From Bdellovibrio bacteriovorus (GTDB lineage Bacteria > Bdellovibrionota > Bdellovibrionia > Bdellovibrionales > Bdellovibrionaceae): a stretch of 64,000 nt of DNA. The notes beneath the pieces were generated by a model. It did no database searches. It was not told the DNA's origin and saw only the letters and a list, made by a program, of their open reading frames with translations. Positions 52,920 to 64,000 of this stretch are shown one piece after another. The stretch lies in contig NZ_LUKF01000002.1 of NCBI RefSeq assembly GCF_001592755.1, positions 121,435 through 185,434 of the forward strand, given 5' to 3'. Both the position numbers and the translations under genes were made by a program. How positions within the stretch are numbered: position 1 is the stretch's first letter; each line of letters begins with the position of its first letter.

Positions 52920-53837
52920 ATGCGTTTAACCTTGGTCACAATGCTGCTCTTACTCTTATCTCTTTCAACTCATGCTGGACAGGATCCTGGTTCTGTCATC
53001 CGCGACAAGCACGAAGACCCAAAACCACCAGCCTGGTCGGATTGGACTTCGATTGGCGGTATGGCAACATCCGATCCAGCGGCTTGTTCCCTTTCTGGAT
53101 TCAGAACTTTCGTCTTTGTTCGTGGCGGAGACAATGCCCTCTGGATGCGTTACTGGAATGGCAGCTACTGGGCGGCTTGGGTATCTCTGGGAGGAGTTTT
53201 AACATCGTCTCCTTCAGCTACCTGTCACGGATCTCGCATTGATGTGTTTGCACGGGGACTAGATGGTGCTCTTTGGCAACGTACTTTTAGATCTAATAGT
53301 TGGCGTCCTTGGGTCTCTTTAGGTGGAGCTCTTGCCGCGAACTCGGGTCCGGGCTCTGCGGCTTGGTCAGGCAATCGTCTGCATGTTTTTGTTCGCGGCA
53401 CTGACAATGCTTTATGGCGCAAATCTTTTGTTGCTAACAACTGGTCCGCTTGGCAATCCTTAGGAGGAGTTTTAACTTCCGATCCTGCGGCAGCCGCGTG
53501 GGCTAATGGACGTTTAGACGTCTTTGTTCGTGGAACTGACAACGCTCTTTGGCACATTTGGTACACCAGCAGTGGCTGGTCCGTATGGGAGTCACTGGGT
53601 GGATACTTAACATCGTCCCCGGACGTGGCTTCTTGGGGCAATGGCCGCCTGGATGTTTTCGTTCGGGGTTCAGACAACGCTCTTTATCACAAATGGTTTC
53701 AATCAGGATGGTCTGATTGGGAAAGCCTGGGAGGTATTCTGACTTCAGGACCAGGCGCAAGTTCTTCCGCTCCCGGCCATGTTATGGTGTTTGTCCGAGG
53801 CACCGACAACACTATTTTTTATCGCAGTTATCGTTAA
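52920..53837 (+). CDS. Exported PLL-like beta-propeller lectin
   Basis: This is a 305-residue exported protein (signal peptide LVTMLLLLLSLSTHA) made of six tandem repeats of about 43-47 residues, each with W..W.SLGG.LTS.P and VFVRGTDNALW. This is the blade pattern of PLL-type (Photorhabdus) lectins, which form seven-bladed propellers that bind fucose or other sugars between blades. Here only six repeats are visible. ACGGAGG precedes the ATG. Sugar specificity is unknown; it could bind glycans of another cell or of the producer's matrix. Confidence 0.87.
   Translation: MRLTLVTMLLLLLSLSTHAGQDPGSVIRDKHEDPKPPAWSDWTSIGGMATSDPAACSLSGFRTFVFVRGGDNALWMRYWNGSYWAAWVSLGGVLTSSPSATCHGSRIDVFARGLDGALWQRTFRSNSWRPWVSLGGALAANSGPGSAAWSGNRLHVFVRGTDNALWRKSFVANNWSAWQSLGGVLTSDPAAAAWANGRLDVFVRGTDNALWHIWYTSSGWSVWESLGGYLTSSPDVASWGNGRLDVFVRGSDNALYHKWFQSGWSDWESLGGILTSGPGASSSAPGHVMVFVRGTDNTIFYRSYR
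53034..53834 (+). repeat. Six tandem lectin-blade repeats
   Basis: Repeat period about 130-140 bases in the lectin gene; each unit encodes W-x2-W-x-SLGG and, 25 residues on, the VFVRG-D/T-DNALW strand. The third unit is the longest. DNA similarity between units is high around the VRGTDNALW codons, which suggests unit duplication. Confidence 0.8.
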
Positions 53838-55927: not shown

Positions 55928-58900
55928 ATGGAACTAAGGTACGTCACTGGTATAACCATCTCATTATTAATATCGTTTTTATCCGCAAGCGCACTTGCAG
56001 CTCCGCCGGCTCTGACTTTTCAGGGACGCATTTTAAAAACGGACGGAACCCCCTTAGAGTATTCTAACGTCAGCTTTATTTTTCAAATCACAGATCCTTC
56101 AGGTCACTGTGTGATTTATCAAGAGCAAGTGACCGGCGTAAATATGGAGAATTCCAAAGGCATCTTTGATGTTCCCATCGGAAAAGGCGGCGTGAACTAT
56201 CCTTTAAGTGGTGGCTTTACGGTTCTTGATGCTTTTAACAACGCGTCTCCTTTCACTTGCGGAGCCTGCAGTGGTTATAGTTGTACCGACAGCACAAGTA
56301 CTTACAACGCTGTTCAAACAGATGGTCGATTGTTGCGTGTGCAATTTCACGACGGCACGGCTTGGCGTTTGATTTCTCCGGACAACGTGATTCGCTCTGT
56401 GCCCTACTCTGCATTTTCTCACTCTGCAAATAAACTTGGAACCAATGTCGCTTCAGACTTTCTTTTAAAGGCAGGTCTTCCGACTTGTAATGCCGGTGAG
56501 TTTTTAACTTGGAATGGAGCAGCCCTAACTTGTGCTGCCGTCAGCGGAGCCAGTGGCGGGACCGTCACCAACGTGACTTCGACGAATTCATATCTAAATG
56601 TAGCTAACGGCACATCGACTCCGGCATTAACTTTAAACGTCGGCACGACCGCGGGCACCGTCGCGGCTGGCGATGATTCTCGCTTTACAAATTCTCGCCC
56701 CCCGAACGGAAGCGCTGGCGGAGACCTCAGCGGAAGTTATCCGAATCCCACAGTTCAAAAAATTCAGAACACAGCCGTTGCAAGTTCGGCTCCTTCAAGC
56801 GGCCAATATTTCAAATTCGACGGAACCTCTTGGGCCGGAGCGGCCATTGCTATTAGTGATGTCAACAATCTGACAACAACACTAGGAACGTATTTAACCA
56901 TGGCGGCATTTAATTCAGCTGTCGGTTCAGGGAACTGCGCAAGTCACCAAACTCCTTATTGGAATTCCGTCAGCAGTTCTTTTCAATGTCAGGCGATCAA
57001 TGTTTCCGTTGCCGGTGATATCAGCGGCAGTATTGGTGCCGTGTCCGTCAACAAAATCAAAGGCGTTGATGTCGATACGACAGGATTAACCACGGGACAA
57101 GTTCTAAAATACGATGGCACGAAATGGGCTCCGGCGAGTGATAGCAATGCTGGAGGGACCGTGACAAGTGTTACAGCAGGAACGGGCCTTTCAGGTGGAA
57201 CGATCACTACGACCGGAACTGTTTCATTGGCAAATACATCTGTGAGTGCCGGAAGCTATGGCAGTGCTACTCAAGTGGCTACTTTCACTGTCGATGCTCA
57301 GGGTCGATTGACCTCCGCCGGAAATGCAGCGATCCCGACTGCCAGCGGAACAACAACAGGTCTTTTATCTTCAACGGATTGGACGGCTTTCAATAGTAAA
57401 CTAGGTACGACTTCAAGTTTTAGCGGCGATATCTCGGGCACTTATAATTCAACAAGCGTTGATAAAATCAAAGGTCGCAGTGTGTCTGCAACGGCTCCCA
57501 CATCTGCTCAGTTCCTGGTCTATGATGGTTCAACACAATATGTGCCGGTATCATTAAGTGGCGATGCGACGATGGCCGCTAATGGCGCTATCACTTTGAA
57601 GAACACGGGCACTGCTGGCACCTACGCAAAAGTGACCACGGATGCGCAAGGAAGAGTGACCTCCGGAAGTACGCTTGCTGCTTCGGATATTCCAAATTTA
57701 GATTGGTCCAAAATCACCTCCGGTAAGCCAACGACTTTAAGTGGCTACGGCGTCACGGATGCCCTTCAAAACGCCGGGGCCACACCCAGCGTGCAAACAG
57801 GAACAGTCGCTGCTCGACCTGCAGCGGGAACAGCCGGCCGACTTTACGTTGGGTCTGATGACAACACTCTTTATCGCGACACAGGTTCTGCGTGGGTGAA
57901 AATTGGAGATGGAACTGGAACTGCTGGAGCTTTGACGGCGGTCACGGCAAGTGCGCCATTGGCATCCAGCGGAGGTACGACTCCAAATATCACGATCGCT
58001 CAAGCTGACACGAATACAAACGGCTATTTAAGCTCTACTGATTGGAATACATTCAACAGCAAATTGGGAACATCTTCAACATTTGCCGGAGACGTCAGCG
58101 GAACTTCAAGCACTACGAGTGTGGATCGCATCAAAGGCAAATCCGTTTCGCCAGCAGCTTATGCTGCAGGACAGACTTTGCGTTATGATGGTACAAACTG
58201 GGTCAATGCAGCTTTAGGTTTTGCAGATCTTTCGGGCAGCGTGACGACAGCACAACTTCCTGTCGTGCCCGTCTCTAAAGGCGGTACTGGCGTCAGCACT
58301 TTGACGGCAGATCGTTTGCTTGTCAGTAATGCCACGGGTTCGGCTGTAAGTGAGTTTAACTGTGCGATGGGACAGCTTATTACTTTTGATGCTTCGGGAG
58401 TGATGGGATGTACAACTTATGCTTCCCTTCCTTTTTATGCTAACGGTGGGAACTCGTTTGGTGGTAACGCCGTTATTGGAACCAATGATGCTTACAACCT
58501 TGGGTTTGAAACTGGTGGCACGACTCGCATGACTATTCAGAATTCGAATGGATATGTTGGTATTGGAACTGCTACTCCAACTCGCGTACTTGAATTGAAC
58601 TTTAATACGACGACTTCGAATGGATTTCAGTCAACGAATACAAATACTGCCGGTTCTTCATCGATCACTCTGGCCGTAGGCACAAATCAAGTTTATCTAG
58701 GCACCTGGGGTACAACGTCCCCAGCAGGCATGGTCACTTACCTTCAATCAACGGCCACGAACACGTTTGATATAAGTACCCATTTAGCCCAACCTATTAC
58801 AATCTCCACTAACAAAAGTTCGGGCGCTGCCGCATCTGAAAGAATGCGCTTCACTTCGGCGGGACTTATCGGGGTCGGCACGAACAATCCGTCGGCGAAT

Positions 58901-59974
58901 TTTCACATCGCAGGCAACTTACTCACTGGAAGCGCAACGACTCAGAAAGTAGTCAGTACGAACACGACTTCGACGGCAACTTCAAACATCAATAGTGCAG
59001 GCTTTTACCAATACGTCGATAACAGCACCGCCAATTCTAATTCGAATCAGGTTCTTCGTGTCGAGTATATTCGAAATCCAGCGGCCACCGGTGTGCCGAC
59101 TTCATTTGATGCTTTGATTACCGCGGCAAATGCAAACATCAATTCCAATGCACCTTACAACCTGCGCGGCGTAAATGTCGAAGGTCCCATCGTAGCCACC
59201 GGGGTGACGCTAAATACTTGGAGAGGCGTTTCCATTGGAGCCCCATCGGGTGCGGGAACTGTTACGAACAGATACGCGCTGGTCACCGATCCTGCCGCAG
59301 GATTTGTCGGGTTAGGAACTGTGACACCTCAAGCGCAGCTTCACATAACGAGTGCAAACAGTTATGCCGCTATTATGTTAGGTAACGATGGTGGCAGTAA
59401 CAATATTCATATGACCCACGAAGTGGATGGCACTTTCGCTTTGTTTAACGGCACCGTGGGCGCCGGTACGACTTTATTGTCCATTACTGCTGCGGGAAAT
59501 GGCTGGCTGAAAGGGACTCTGACTCAAGCCTCGGATGTTCGACTAAAAAAAGACATTCAGACAATGCCTGAAGAATTGAATAAAATTCTTCAAATTCGCC
59601 CCGTGACTTATCACTGGAAAGAGGAAAGTCGCAGCAAAGAAAAACAAATTGGTTTCATTGCTCAAGAAGTTGAAAAAATTTATCCGGAACTTGTGCAAAA
59701 CAACCGTGATGGAAATAAGTCGGTGGCTTACTCAAATTTCGTAGCTCCGATCATTAAGGCTCTTCAAGAGTTCTATGCGCAGTGGTCAAACCACAGTCAA
59801 AAGATTGATCGCGAAATAGCATCCATCCAAGAGGAAAATAGCTCCTTAAAAAGGCATGTTCAACAAACGCAGCAAGAGCTTGAGCGAGTCAAAAAAGACA
59901 ATCTTCAAAAAGAAAAAGAACTGCAAGAAATGAAAGCCCGCTTAGAAAGAATCGAAAAAAGTCTTTCTAAGTAG
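55928..59974 (+). CDS. Large tail-fibre-like surface protein with S74 chaperone domain
   Basis: Predicted exported fibre of 1,348 residues. After a signal peptide (ISLLISFLSASALA) comes an N-terminal domain (about 28-190) with the common ALTFQGRIL start. A long repeat-rich shaft follows (about 200-880) with GGTVTSVTAGTGLSGG motifs and four copies of a GDxSG...KIKG...YDGTxW unit. Then come a glycine/threonine-rich tip region and a C-terminal S74 intramolecular chaperone (about 1,200-1,285; SDVRLKKDI). The last 65 residues form a coiled coil. In phage fibres the chaperone trimerises the shaft and cuts itself off. Similar trimeric adhesins have been described in Bdellovibrio as prey-recognition fibres. 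No phage genes are nearby. Confidence 0.87.
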   Translation: MELRYVTGITISLLISFLSASALAAPPALTFQGRILKTDGTPLEYSNVSFIFQITDPSGHCVIYQEQVTGVNMENSKGIFDVPIGKGGVNYPLSGGFTVLDAFNNASPFTCGACSGYSCTDSTSTYNAVQTDGRLLRVQFHDGTAWRLISPDNVIRSVPYSAFSHSANKLGTNVASDFLLKAGLPTCNAGEFLTWNGAALTCAAVSGASGGTVTNVTSTNSYLNVANGTSTPALTLNVGTTAGTVAAGDDSRFTNSRPPNGSAGGDLSGSYPNPTVQKIQNTAVASSAPSSGQYFKFDGTSWAGAAIAISDVNNLTTTLGTYLTMAAFNSAVGSGNCASHQTPYWNSVSSSFQCQAINVSVAGDISGSIGAVSVNKIKGVDVDTTGLTTGQVLKYDGTKWAPASDSNAGGTVTSVTAGTGLSGGTITTTGTVSLANTSVSAGSYGSATQVATFTVDAQGRLTSAGNAAIPTASGTTTGLLSSTDWTAFNSKLGTTSSFSGDISGTYNSTSVDKIKGRSVSATAPTSAQFLVYDGSTQYVPVSLSGDATMAANGAITLKNTGTAGTYAKVTTDAQGRVTSGSTLAASDIPNLDWSKITSGKPTTLSGYGVTDALQNAGATPSVQTGTVAARPAAGTAGRLYVGSDDNTLYRDTGSAWVKIGDGTGTAGALTAVTASAPLASSGGTTPNITIAQADTNTNGYLSSTDWNTFNSKLGTSSTFAGDVSGTSSTTSVDRIKGKSVSPAAYAAGQTLRYDGTNWVNAALGFADLSGSVTTAQLPVVPVSKGGTGVSTLTADRLLVSNATGSAVSEFNCAMGQLITFDASGVMGCTTYASLPFYANGGNSFGGNAVIGTNDAYNLGFETGGTTRMTIQNSNGYVGIGTATPTRVLELNFNTTTSNGFQSTNTNTAGSSSITLAVGTNQVYLGTWGTTSPAGMVTYLQSTATNTFDISTHLAQPITISTNKSSGAAASERMRFTSAGLIGVGTNNPSANFHIAGNLLTGSATTQKVVSTNTTSTATSNINSAGFYQYVDNSTANSNSNQVLRVEYIRNPAATGVPTSFDALITAANANINSNAPYNLRGVNVEGPIVATGVTLNTWRGVSIGAPSGAGTVTNRYALVTDPAAGFVGLGTVTPQAQLHITSANSYAAIMLGNDGGSNNIHMTHEVDGTFALFNGTVGAGTTLLSITAAGNGWLKGTLTQASDVRLKKDIQTMPEELNKILQIRPVTYHWKEESRSKEKQIGFIAQEVEKIYPELVQNNRDGNKSVAYSNFVAPIIKALQEFYAQWSNHSQKIDREIASIQEENSSLKRHVQQTQQELERVKKDNLQKEKELQEMKARLERIEKSLSK
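56719..58240 (+). repeat. Four fibre-shaft repeats
   Basis: Units begin near residues 264, 363, 499 and 721 of the fibre: GD(L/I/I/V)SG, a short variable stretch, V-x-KI(K/Q)G/N, then GQxLxYDGTxW. Two copies of LSSTDWxxFNSKLGT intervene. Such units build a triple beta-helical shaft. Confidence 0.75.
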
Positions 59975-59986
59975 GCTTTTTAGGAA

Positions 59987-61654
59987 CTAAATCTTGTAAA
60001 CACGCGTCTCGTAAGGACGAAGATCCACCTGCTCTAGGTTTGCATGTTCCGCGACCTGATAATTGGATAAAAGCATGTTTTTCGAATTCAAGGTCATACC
60101 GGTTTCGCTGAACTTCGCAGGTTTATCCGAGATATTGCAGATCACTAGCATCTTTGAACCTTCTAAAGTCCTCACATAGGCATAAACTTGCGGATCTTTT
60201 TCCATCACAAGCTGATAACTTCCATATATAAAAACTTGATGTTCGCGGCGAAGCTGAATCAATTTTTTGTAGAAGTTAAAAATTGAATTCACATCTTGGC
60301 GCTGCTTTTCAACATTGATCTCTTTATAGTTCGGATTGACCTTCAGCCACGGTTTACCCGTTGTGAAGCCCGCATTGGCTTCGGCACTCCACTGCATCGG
60401 CGTGCGCGCATTATCGCGAGAAGCGTTGGCGAGTTCACGCGTGATTTCCGCGTCGGATGCGCCCTGCTTTCTGCGGATCGCAAAATGATTTTTTGCCGAG
60501 ACATCGTTGAAATCTTCAGGTCCATTGAAAACTGTATTCGTCATACCGATTTCTTGACCTTGATAGATTAGCGGAGTCCCCTGCATTAAGAAATACATCG
60601 CCGCGATAGACGTCGCACTTTCGCGCCAGTAATTTTTAGCGTCTCCCCACTTTGAAATAATACGAGGCACATCGTGGTTCTCTACAAACAAAGCATTCCA
60701 TCCTTTGTTGTCTAACTCTTTCTGCCAACGTCCAAAAACCTCTTTGACCTTTAAAAGGTCAATGCGTTTTTCGGGATTTGGATCCCACAAACCAACGTGC
60801 TCAAACTGAATGACCATGTTGAATTTCTTTTGCGACTCTCCTACCCACTCGTCCGCATTTTCTGCAGAGACACCGTTGGCTTCTGCAATCGTCATGATAT
60901 CGTAGTGAGAAAACGTATTCTTACAAAGATCCGTCAGATATTCTTGGATGCCTTTGACGTTCATGTGCTTATCGTAGGAAGGCACATATTCAAGACCTTT
61001 TGGATTTGGCATATCTGCCAATCCTTCTTCTTTTTTTGCGTGGCTGATGGCATCGACGCGGAAACCATCAATGCCTTTATCCAACCACCAGCGGATCATC
61101 TTGTAAACTTCTTGGCGCATGCCTAGATTTTCCCAATTGAGATCCGGCTGCTTCGCAGAGAAAATATGCATGAAGTACTGATTGGTTAATTCATCATATT
61201 TCCAAGCAGAACCGCCGAAAATGCTTTCCCAATTGTTAGGCTCTTTGCCGTTTTTGCCATCTCTCCAGATGTACCAATCTCTTTTGGGATTGTCTTTGGA
61301 CGAACGAGACTCGATGAACCAAGGATGTTCATCACTTGTGTGATTGATGACGAGATCAATCAGAAGTTTCATTCCTCGCTTATGTACCTCGCTTAAAAGA
61401 GTGTCGAAGTCCTGCATCGTACCGAATTCAAAATGAATGTCTTGATAATCGCTGATGTCATAGCCGTTATCGTCTTGCGGGGACTTGTACATCGGACTCA
61501 TCCAAATGACGTCGATGCCAAGCTCTTTCAAATAATCTAATTTTGAAATGACACCTTGGAGGTCTCCCATGCCATCGCCGTTAGAATCCATGAAACTGCG
61601 AGGATAAACTTGATAGACGACAGATTCTTTCCACCATTTTTTGGACGGCGCCAT
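59987..61654 (-). CDS. GH13 alpha-glucosidase (oligo-1,6-glucosidase type)
   Basis: Predicted cytosolic glycoside hydrolase of 555 residues that removes glucose from the ends of alpha-glucosides; trehalose-6-phosphate hydrolase is an alternative. The TIM-barrel motifs are present: DLVINHTSDEHPWF, QPDLNWEN (exo-acting group), nucleophile Asp in GFRVDAISH, acid Glu in TIAEANGV and VENHDVPR. ATG 61654 follows AAGGTGGGAAC; an ATG fourteen codons earlier is rejected. There are no sugar transporter or regulator genes beside it. Its position between two fibre genes looks incidental. Confidence 0.93.
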   Translation of the reverse strand: MAPSKKWWKESVVYQVYPRSFMDSNGDGMGDLQGVISKLDYLKELGIDVIWMSPMYKSPQDDNGYDISDYQDIHFEFGTMQDFDTLLSEVHKRGMKLLIDLVINHTSDEHPWFIESRSSKDNPKRDWYIWRDGKNGKEPNNWESIFGGSAWKYDELTNQYFMHIFSAKQPDLNWENLGMRQEVYKMIRWWLDKGIDGFRVDAISHAKKEEGLADMPNPKGLEYVPSYDKHMNVKGIQEYLTDLCKNTFSHYDIMTIAEANGVSAENADEWVGESQKKFNMVIQFEHVGLWDPNPEKRIDLLKVKEVFGRWQKELDNKGWNALFVENHDVPRIISKWGDAKNYWRESATSIAAMYFLMQGTPLIYQGQEIGMTNTVFNGPEDFNDVSAKNHFAIRRKQGASDAEITRELANASRDNARTPMQWSAEANAGFTTGKPWLKVNPNYKEINVEKQRQDVNSIFNFYKKLIQLRREHQVFIYGSYQLVMEKDPQVYAYVRTLEGSKMLVICNISDKPAKFSETGMTLNSKNMLLSNYQVAEHANLEQVDLRPYETRVYKI

Positions 61655-61748
61655 GTTCCCACCTTTTATAAAGACCGATGGGACTGATAAGAACAAAAAA
61701 GCAGCAAGGTGTCACTTGCTGCCGTGTCTTGTCAGAGGCTTTTATACA

Positions 61749-63185
61749 TTATCTTAAGAAAAATTTGAAAGTACAGGAGCCCTTACCATTGTAACAGACC
61801 TCGGTGGCTTTATAGGCAGGAACGACACCTTCGTTGCCAGATAAGAAGGCAATATTAAAGGCATCCGAAGAGTTGTAATTGTCATTGGCATTTTGCCCCG
61901 CACATCCTGCTGTTCGACTGGTGTGACGTAGATTCCCGGCACATTTTGTACTGTTGTAATTCCAGTTTCCACCGGCAAGGTCAATGATCGCGGCTCCACT
62001 GTTGTATTGAGGCGAAATAAACATGGCATCCGTTGTATTCACCAATGTCGAAAACTGCTCTGGATTCAAAGAAGCTTGGGTGTTCGCGACGGCGGGTTTT
62101 GCCACACTGGCAAGACTGTAGGTATTGACCATAAAATCATTCGGAGTAGAAGCCGTCACTGTTCCATTAGAATGCGCAACGAGTGTCCAGCCACCGCCAC
62201 TCGTCGTCATATCACAGTAAGCCTCGTATGCAGCGCCGGCTCCCGCACCGTCGGGGTCAATTGTATAAATACCGTCTCCCTTTGAGGCCCCGGCATTTAA
62301 GATCGCTTTGCACGATGAATACACCGTGTGCGTGTCGGTTTCCTTCATCCACAGATTTACCTCAGCCACGCCATGGGACGCGCCCATATCCTCTGAAGCT
62401 GGAATACCTGGAGGAGTCGTTCCCCACGTTACGAAAGAACCAACCGCATAGTACCAATTACCATGATTAACCGAACCATCAATGTAGGAGGATGTACTTG
62501 CTAAACCATGGGTTCCGCCCGAGAGCTCTAAGCCTCCCCAATAGTTGGAATAGGCTTGAACGAATTCAGTCGTGTAGCCTGCGACATCCACGTCAGCGCG
62601 CGGACTCGTTGTCTGCCACCATAAGTTTTTAAAACTTTCCCCCGGCCAAGTTAAACGGAAGTGATAACGATTGGTCGGAGTTCGAAAGTAGTCCATTTGG
62701 TTTAAGATGGAATACAGTCCATTGTTCGGGTCCGAAGTATTTTTAGAGTCCGCATCTGCATTGCTCGCAAAAAATCCTGAAGCATGCTGATGTTTGAAGA
62801 CACGCGTCCAGCCCCCACCGTCGGTCGTCATGTCACAGTAAACCGGATACGGAGAAGAACCCGAAGGATCAATGTGATAAATGCCGTCGCCTGTAGACCC
62901 ACCGTTATTCAAAATATCCCAACAGGACTTACAGTTTTGAAGTGTGACACTCGGAACCGAGGCCGCACGAAACGCGGTCCACTCTGCCGCCGTTTTGGTA
63001 GGTACGAAGTAATCTCGTGACGCGTGCGCATTCACTACTTTTTTGCAGACGTTGTGAGCATAAATAGCTTTTGTGGTTCCTCGCAAAACTTTAAAACCAC
63101 TATCGACAGTATCAATTCCCATCAGGGAAAGACCTAGAACTAAAAATAAAGATGATTTTAGAAAAAGACTGATTTTACTTGCCAT
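61749..63185 (-). CDS. Exported protein with two fibrinogen-like (GGGWT) domains
   Basis: This is a 478-residue exported protein (signal peptide SSLFLVLGLSLMG). Two fibrinogen-like modules are evident, each starting SC.(D/A)ILN.G.S.GDGIY.IDP.G and ending YCDMTT-GGGWT (about residues 85-127 and 290-332). The stretch between and after them is rich in Asn, Thr, Ser and Trp. In animals this fold (ficolins, tachylectins) binds sugars; bacterial forms carry the same YCD-GGGW motif, usually on surface or secreted proteins. ATG 63185 overlaps the stop of the fibre gene upstream by 11 bases, so the two are translated together. A role as the fibre's sugar-binding partner is inference. Confidence 0.85.
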   Translation of the reverse strand: MASKISLFLKSSLFLVLGLSLMGIDTVDSGFKVLRGTTKAIYAHNVCKKVVNAHASRDYFVPTKTAAEWTAFRAASVPSVTLQNCKSCWDILNNGGSTGDGIYHIDPSGSSPYPVYCDMTTDGGGWTRVFKHQHASGFFASNADADSKNTSDPNNGLYSILNQMDYFRTPTNRYHFRLTWPGESFKNLWWQTTSPRADVDVAGYTTEFVQAYSNYWGGLELSGGTHGLASTSSYIDGSVNHGNWYYAVGSFVTWGTTPPGIPASEDMGASHGVAEVNLWMKETDTHTVYSSCKAILNAGASKGDGIYTIDPDGAGAGAAYEAYCDMTTSGGGWTLVAHSNGTVTASTPNDFMVNTYSLASVAKPAVANTQASLNPEQFSTLVNTTDAMFISPQYNSGAAIIDLAGGNWNYNSTKCAGNLRHTSRTAGCAGQNANDNYNSSDAFNIAFLSGNEGVVPAYKATEVCYNGKGSCTFKFFLR

Positions 63186-64000
63186 TGAGAAGTGCCTTTT
63201 CCAATCTTTCAAGGCGCGCCTTCAATTCCTGATTCTCTTTTTCGAGCTGTTCGAATCTCTCTTCGGACTGCGCACTCACCGATGCGATACCTCTTTGACA
63301 TTGCGCCTGGGCTTGAACACGTTGGTGGTGCTCTTCCTTCAATGCTTCGACTAAAATCGCGACGATGTTTCCGTACTGTACGGCTTTATATCCAGAGTTT
63401 TTATCGGTCTTCACTAATTCAGGATAAACCGCTTCAACTTCTTGGGCAATGAAACCGACTGTTTTTTCATTCGTGTTTTTCCAGACGAAATTCACGCCGC
63501 GAAGTTTTAATAGTTTTTCCAAAGCTTCAGGTAAAGTAACAACGTCCTTTTTCAAACGCGCATCCGAAGTATAAAGGTAAGCCGTGGCTTTTACGTTGCC
63601 ATTCACTTCTAAGGCTTCGCTCGGTGCTGTCGTATTTACACCGACGTTACCTGTGCTTAGAATCGTAATCTTGGCAGTATTACTTGCACCAATCTGTAAA
63701 GAACTGGCTATTGAATTCGTTATACCAGAACCGATGGTCACCGAGTTAGACGCACTCACCGTATTGCCTCGTCCGGCAATATAAGCATTGCCAGCGTTGG
63801 ACACCGTATTGCTTCTTCCAAACAAGTCCAATCCATAAGAGAAGTTAGCAAGTGTGGTCGATATCGTATTGCTAGATCCGACGATATTCATACTACTGGC
63901 ATTTCCGCCGCCCGAATTAGTGATCGAGTTCGAAGCACCGAAGATCCAGTTTGAAGCGTTCGTGAAATTGGTATTGCTATTACCTAAAATAGCCGGACCA
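63175..64000 (-). CDS. Fibre protein with YadA-like head repeats and S74 domain (3' part)
   Basis: The frame is open to the window edge, so the N-terminal part is missing. The visible 275 residues start with repeats of the form G-x2-N-T-(V/I), for example VGSSNTISTT, FGRSNTVSNAGNAYIAGRGNTVSASNSVTIGSG, which resemble the left-handed beta-roll of YadA-type trimeric adhesin heads. An S74 chaperone domain follows (SDARLKKDVVTLPEAL ... GFIAQEVEAVYPEL), then a C-terminal coiled coil (EERFEQLEKENQELKARLERL). It is probably a trimeric surface adhesin with the head at the tip. It overlaps the fibrinogen-like gene. Confidence 0.83.
   Translation of the reverse strand, partial: GPAILGNSNTNFTNASNWIFGASNSITNSGGGNASSMNIVGSSNTISTTLANFSYGLDLFGRSNTVSNAGNAYIAGRGNTVSASNSVTIGSGITNSIASSLQIGASNTAKITILSTGNVGVNTTAPSEALEVNGNVKATAYLYTSDARLKKDVVTLPEALEKLLKLRGVNFVWKNTNEKTVGFIAQEVEAVYPELVKTDKNSGYKAVQYGNIVAILVEALKEEHHQRVQAQAQCQRGIASVSAQSEERFEQLEKENQELKARLERLEKALLNGK

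Follow-up and report, generated by a model that had tools for sequence, protein, structure and literature searches.

The gene pair and its two products

Two genes, both on the minus strand, meet near the end of the window, i.e., the whole stretch of 64,000 nucleotides that was analysed (C2:121435-185434 of the 3.66-Mb genome G000). The upstream gene encodes a fibre and the downstream gene, referred to here as the partner, an exported-type protein, and the following features were located:

63175-64000 (-): 3' part of the MAT-family fibre gene (NF053851 and PF13884); the remainder extends in G000:C2 up to 187464
63565-63579 (-): YLYTS, leading up to and including the position of the predicted S74 cut; these residues form the predicted new C-terminus of the mature fibre and a candidate dock for the partner
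63409-63567 (-): Peptidase_S74 chaperone domain (PF13884, residues 822-874), in which the catalytic SDxxxK motif reads SDARLK
63175-63185 (-): 11-base gene overlap, ATGGCAAGTAA, with the partner ATG (63185) over the fibre TAA (63175)
61749-63185 (-): partner gene, with its ATG at 63185, encoding an exported-type protein of 478 aa with the NTD and two GGGWT units
63120-63185 (-): signal-peptide-like N-terminus of the partner (residues 1-22), a hydrophobic stretch judged by eye
62922-63119 (-): NTD, a domain of about 66 aa between the signal peptide and the first GGGWT module, defined from an alignment of 32 sequences
62802-62930 (-): GGGWT module 1 (NF040941); the C-terminal lobe behind it extends to 62328
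62178-62315 (-): GGGWT module 2 (NF040941); the lobe behind it, unlike that of module 1, extends to 61752
61700-61723 (-): terminator-like hairpin with a T-run after the gene pair (L005 8158-8135), a consensus match only

The sequence-only reading had placed an 11-base overlap between a fibre gene and the gene of an exported GGGWT protein, and this junction proved exact, with both frames real. The sequence GGAAAAGG upstream of the partner ATG is a plausible ribosome-binding sequence, and the two genes may be co-translated.

The fibre gene leaves the window, and its full-length product has 951 aa (L005:9610-12465). The conserved MAT N-terminal domain of about 130 aa, located after the signal peptide, is present in this protein (NCBIfam Bdello_MAT_N, NF053851: E 2.7e-62, 209 bits against a cut-off of 60), which also matches Peptidase_S74 (PF13884: E 2.5e-16, 60 bits) and the structure of the bd2133 MAT protein (8ond: E 3.5e-6). 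The fibre had been described as a “YadA-like S74 fibre”, of which the S74 part holds, while the YadA part amounts to a resemblance, given that the full fibre matched no YadA family at E ≤ 0.5, neither the head or stalk models nor the membrane-anchor model. An identity as a YadA trimeric autotransporter was thus rejected, and by its profile matches the fibre is a member of the MAT family, in the S74 subgroup. The window also holds a second S74 MAT gene at 55928-59974 (+), of 1348 aa, which converges with an alpha-glucosidase-like gene (59987-61696), has the cut site ...TQASD, and has no NTD partner.

The two GGGWT modules reported for the partner were recovered by NF040941 (GGGWT_bact) in two stretches, at 134.9 bits against a cut-off of 30, and the YCDxxxxGGGW module is present. 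The partner also matches the fibrinogen family PF00147, where the coverage is limited to the N-terminal 46-55 or so residues, the best stretch being 55 of the 221 profile positions. The two fibrinogen-like units share 61% identity over their first 46 or so residues and diverge beyond them; over the matching stretches only, phmmer placed unit 1 closest to MFAP4/fibrinogen and unit 2 (its first 60 or so residues) closest to the intelectins.

The earlier suggestion of a calcium-dependent lectin for acetylated sugars is not supported by this analysis, given both this short profile match and a pattern look at the head units, in which the DxD/NCA calcium-site signature of the animal fibrinogen lectins was not found. 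Ordinary ficolin-like lectins are likewise not supported as the identity of the heads, as the match to the whole FReD fails and the part with the calcium and ligand sites is unmatched. A lectin role of the heads is plausible by family, and calcium or acetyl-sugar binding is unsupported by the sequence. When the full partner was modelled with AlphaFold2, from an alignment of 32 rows (three of them full-length), the NTD alone was predicted well and the heads reached a pLDDT of about 35, so that no fold is claimed for the latter.

Some other proteins were recorded in passing. The only other GGGWT protein in G000 (C8, L054:8676-11657), 993 aa long, lacks the NTD and contains repeats of the bacterial Ig-like and OmpL47 types, and at 52920-53837 (+) the window encodes an exported protein of 305 aa with WxSLGG repeats, which by eye resembles a lectin-type beta-propeller. 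In the Vibrio phage KVP40 and its relatives (H1-H10), GGGWT fibrinogen-like modules are carried by the long-tail-fibre protein annotated as the gp35 hinge connector.

The NTD and the conservation of the gene pair

The NTD follows the pattern C-x2-V-x-N...F-[VI]-P-T-x-[TS]-x2-E-W-x2-F...C in the alignment of 32 sequences, and it is predicted by AlphaFold2 as a small beta domain with one helix, at a mean pLDDT of 87 (about 92 in the core). No Pfam family fits more than one of the 32 members, and the NTD profile retrieved no PDB chain at E ≤ 1, gp38 included. These missing sequence matches set the NTD apart as an apparently undescribed domain, and structure comparison gave no convincing match either (Foldseek at best E 2.0, VIA at best Z 3.4), although a new fold does not follow from this. 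The pattern had 11 matches in IMG/VR, none of them confirmed.

Among 119 relatives, GGGWT domains occur in 32 and S74 in 87. The sequence-only reading had proposed a search for the same pair in other Bdellovibrionota, and it was indeed found in the gene neighbourhoods of relatives: an S74 MAT gene is followed by a GGGWT gene on the same strand, nearly touching, in G000, G018, G008, G017, G001, G005, G023, G004, and G019, with two tandem GGGWT genes after the MAT gene in G001, G005, and G023. In G013 and G002 the two parts lie in one chain, a MAT fibre with GGGWT at its own C-terminus, with both Bdello_MAT_N and GGGWT_bact over their cut-offs.

When the NTD alone was searched for, Gly-rich-headed proteins that lack GGGWT were found directly after other S74 fibres in G020 and G019, and in G003 a further NTD protein, with a TSP1-like tail, follows an S74 protein that is prepilin-like. 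The C-terminal heads of the NTD proteins vary widely (GGGWT, Gly-rich, LamG, TSP1-like, and Hint), and on these comparisons it is the NTD whose association with the fibre is conserved, GGGWT being one of several alternative heads. In 11 of the 24 Bdellovibrio genomes, 12 NTD loci directly follow a co-oriented S74 gene, at -17 to about +100 bp; nine of the 12 bear GGGWT heads, and together these loci occupy at least three different genomic settings. Unlinked Bdellovibrio NTD genes also occur (L045, L046, L047, L050, and L052), and across the order the NTD is present in 32 of 141 genomes. The number of S74 matches in G005 is 13, and 13 S74 MATs are reported in HD100 (PMC10769870).

Several unusual arrangements were also observed. 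In B. bacteriovorus kdesi, the last part of a regulator-like protein of 234 aa is, in frame, the coiled coil that ends an S74 MAT (L039:7806-8510, also L246:3290-3994), just before two GGGWT genes, where the fibre gene has apparently been deleted and its tail left fused to the regulator-like gene. NTD proteins with a Hint-like C-terminus were seen in L142:4199-7381 (Pfam) and, by eye, in L221:1473-4571 and L242:1712-2659. A prepilin-like N-terminus is combined with a C-terminal S74 in L142:2083-4052, L145:3538-4884, L221:5284-6291, and L222:3289-5287, several of which adjoin an NTD protein, and these proteins are possible self-trimming pilin tips.

With the NTD alone as the query, 84,980 species genomes, of which the MAGs may be incomplete, were scanned (the Gracilibacteria being translated with code 25), which returned 37 loci, of which 36 are real and one (L274) was rejected as a false match. 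In 24 of the 36 real loci, the NTD gene is directly preceded by an S74 gene in the same orientation, mostly at a spacing of -8 to +88 bp, and ten or so do not adjoin S74; the hosts are Bdellovibrionota, Patescibacteria, Nano-/Woesearchaeota, Hyphomicrobium, and other Pseudomonadota. The 20 paired genomes, picked because they are paired, contain 27 S74 and 25 NTD matches, and as S74 genes number just one to three per genome, well under one chance adjacency is expected; the second NTD genes of G152 and G156, for which no selection was made, are also paired with S74. The gene pairing is therefore far beyond chance, and a two-gene module conserved across bacteria and archaea is well supported by these sequences. 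A strict tie between NTD and S74 was rejected, given that two nearly complete genomes (G113 and G137) carry the NTD with no S74 detected. A limited literature search found no relevant work on a partner gene for S74, or on S74 in DPANN or Patescibacteria.

The cut-site motif and the proposed docking of a head on the fibre tip

The motif [FY]-x-Y-x-S, before the D at the S74 cut, is associated with the presence of an NTD partner. Scored as [FY]-x-[YHW]-x-S, it was found in 34 of 35 partnered fibres, in 15 of the 67 unpartnered S74 proteins of NTD-bearing genomes or loci, and in none of the 33 from NTD-less genomes (seven further ones, inspected by eye, also lack it). When near-copies were removed, all 26 partnered sequences had Tyr at -2, an aromatic residue at -4, and Ala at -7 (script numbering), and of 92 columns it was that of Tyr at -2 which best separated partnered from other sequences, in a comparison in which the S74 domain was aligned ungapped, so that the columns beyond about +30 were weakly tested. 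Even the adjacent paralogues of L215 differ, with ...YLYTSD in the partnered and ...YISTSD in the unpartnered fibre.

The data in which the motif was counted are also those from which it was defined. The exception is a follow-up set of genomes with unlinked NTD genes, where six of the eight that have any S74 bear it; it was not found in G079 and G091, where both NTD and S74 are present. Two motif-bearing MAT fibres with no adjacent NTD gene (L130:304-4566 in G020 and L131:1333-5652 in G006) lie in genomes with NTD-GGGWT genes elsewhere, and are candidates for pairing in trans.

The Fisher value for motif against partnership (5e-19) overstates the case, as the S74 sequences are related and the supported independent pairs, in which the motif follows partnership 5:0, give a median p of 0.06. 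In an S74 tree built with the tip columns left out, from a sample of tips that is not random, most of the partnered and motif-bearing sequences share a single clade, the remainder being spread over several further ones, with 17 changes of the partnered label. Given this, the coupling of motif and partnership is consistent, and its significance after relatedness is modest.

These observations can be brought together in a mechanism in which the C-terminal S74 domain of the presumably trimeric MAT fibre would fold the tip and then cut itself off, as the SDxxxK motif suggests for the fibre of the window and as was published for the MAT protein Bd3182 (PMC10769870). The cut would leave a fibre ending in ...A-T-A-Y-L-Y-T-S, a newly exposed C-terminal tip which the NTD of the second product, once exported to the surface, may recognise and dock onto, while the C-terminal part, with its two GGGWT units and different lobes, would be displayed as a contact surface for prey. 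As the same NTD bears other heads in related modules, specificity could change by the exchange of heads while dock and fibre stay constant.

It is on the whole probable that the two genes encode one such two-piece surface adhesin, with the NTD docked on the S74-cleaved tip and a swappable head. The pairing at the protein level has indirect support from the MAT-GGGWT fusions, the pairing of NTD and S74 across phyla, and the partner-specific cut-site motif. On this docking reading, autocleavage in cellular S74 fibres would serve to make a dock, and prey- or host-recognition heads could be swapped without the fibre being rebuilt.

The linkage may also be read as the result of shared regulation and cassette transfer, with the partner as an adhesin in its own right, secreted or bound to the surface and just co-expressed with the fibre, and the motif as a mark of ancestry. 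This is rather unlikely: the unlinked NTD genes, the genomes with NTD but without S74, and the clade that holds most partnered S74 domains all agree with it, but the spacing stays tight, in the range of an overlap, from phylum to phylum in bacteria and archaea alike, the motif is carried by unlinked fibres in genomes that have an NTD, the closely similar unpartnered paralogue in L215 lacks it, and direct MAT-GGGWT fusions occur.

T4 gp38 and the Tfa proteins are tail-fibre assembly helpers, and the NTD protein could, by analogy, be a factor for the assembly or release of S74 fibres rather than a lasting tip. The order of fibre then helper is typical of phage tail-fibre chaperones, and there are weak Gly-rich matches to a “tail fiber assembly” PHROG; signal peptides and heads as varied as those listed above would, however, be unexpected in chaperones, and S74 already serves as a folding chaperone, which makes this role improbable. 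More doubtful still is a reading in which the S74 domain itself, uncleaved or cut off, is the target of the NTD, which would, e.g., retain or inhibit it. Partnered proteins do include prepilin-type and short ones with little in common beyond their S74 end (L145 and L267), but the strongest partner-specific column precedes the cut, on the side of the fibre, in a comparison where, as stated, the columns beyond about +30 count for little.

The docking reading may be extended to a general two-piece adhesin of bacteria and archaea, for which we put the chances barely above even, in which S74 cleavage would make a C-terminal dock (...[FY]-x-Y-x-S) on fibres and prepilin-like proteins that the NTD caps with interchangeable heads, notably in predators and in lineages known to live attached to other cells (Bdellovibrionota, Patescibacteria, and Nano-/Woesearchaeota). 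The NTD provides a handle for finding such adhesins in uncultured epibionts and archaea, where attachment proteins are largely unknown, and laboratory strains of Bdellovibrio are genetically tractable, which makes the dock directly testable.

Comparison with known systems

The fibre resembles the published Bdellovibrio MAT fibres (Caulton et al. 2024, PMC10769870, NF053851) in its conserved N-terminal domain and in its S74 terminus with SDxxxK, and differs from them in that the published adhesive tip is in the same chain, the main text making no mention of a separate partner gene. A parallel to the arrangement of fibre and GGGWT end is found in two NS74 MATs (L043 and L044) to which a GGGWT tip is fused; these are, on the other hand, single chains without S74 or NTD, and offer an alternative solution to the same arrangement.

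The heads share with the GGGWT_bact and fibrinogen-like proteins (NF040941, PF00147), the intelectins, and the ficolins the C-D-M-T-T-x-GGGWT module, which is above the cut-off in both units. Unlike those proteins, they match over their first 46-55 or so residues only, with no recognised calcium-site signature and with lobes that are mutually unlike.

The T2-type phages S16 and PP01 also have a fibre gene (gp37) with a separate adhesin (gp38), which has an N-terminal dock and a C-terminal part for specificity (6F45), with Gly-rich heads like those on some NTD partners. In these phages, gp38 is docked on gp37 through its N-terminus and can be swapped, and the exchange of its first 113 residues restores the fit to another gp37 (PMC12892980). 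The C-terminal S74 region of the fibre matches the gp37 chain of the S16 gp37-gp38 complex (6f45_A, E 1.9e-5), where the alignment shows that, unlike in the partnered fibres, the FxYxS motif is missing at the cut-site position. The T2-type pair belongs to phages, whereas the NTD module is cellular, with no NTD confirmed in IMG/VR. A query with the partner (P0001) gave no gp38 family and the NTD profile, as stated above, no PDB chain; with a relation to gp38 undetectable, the module is therefore described as working like gp37/gp38 and is not counted as a member. By this analogy, the small NTD is probably a clip that fastens exchangeable binding heads to fibres which trim themselves, much as in the gp37/gp38 pair.
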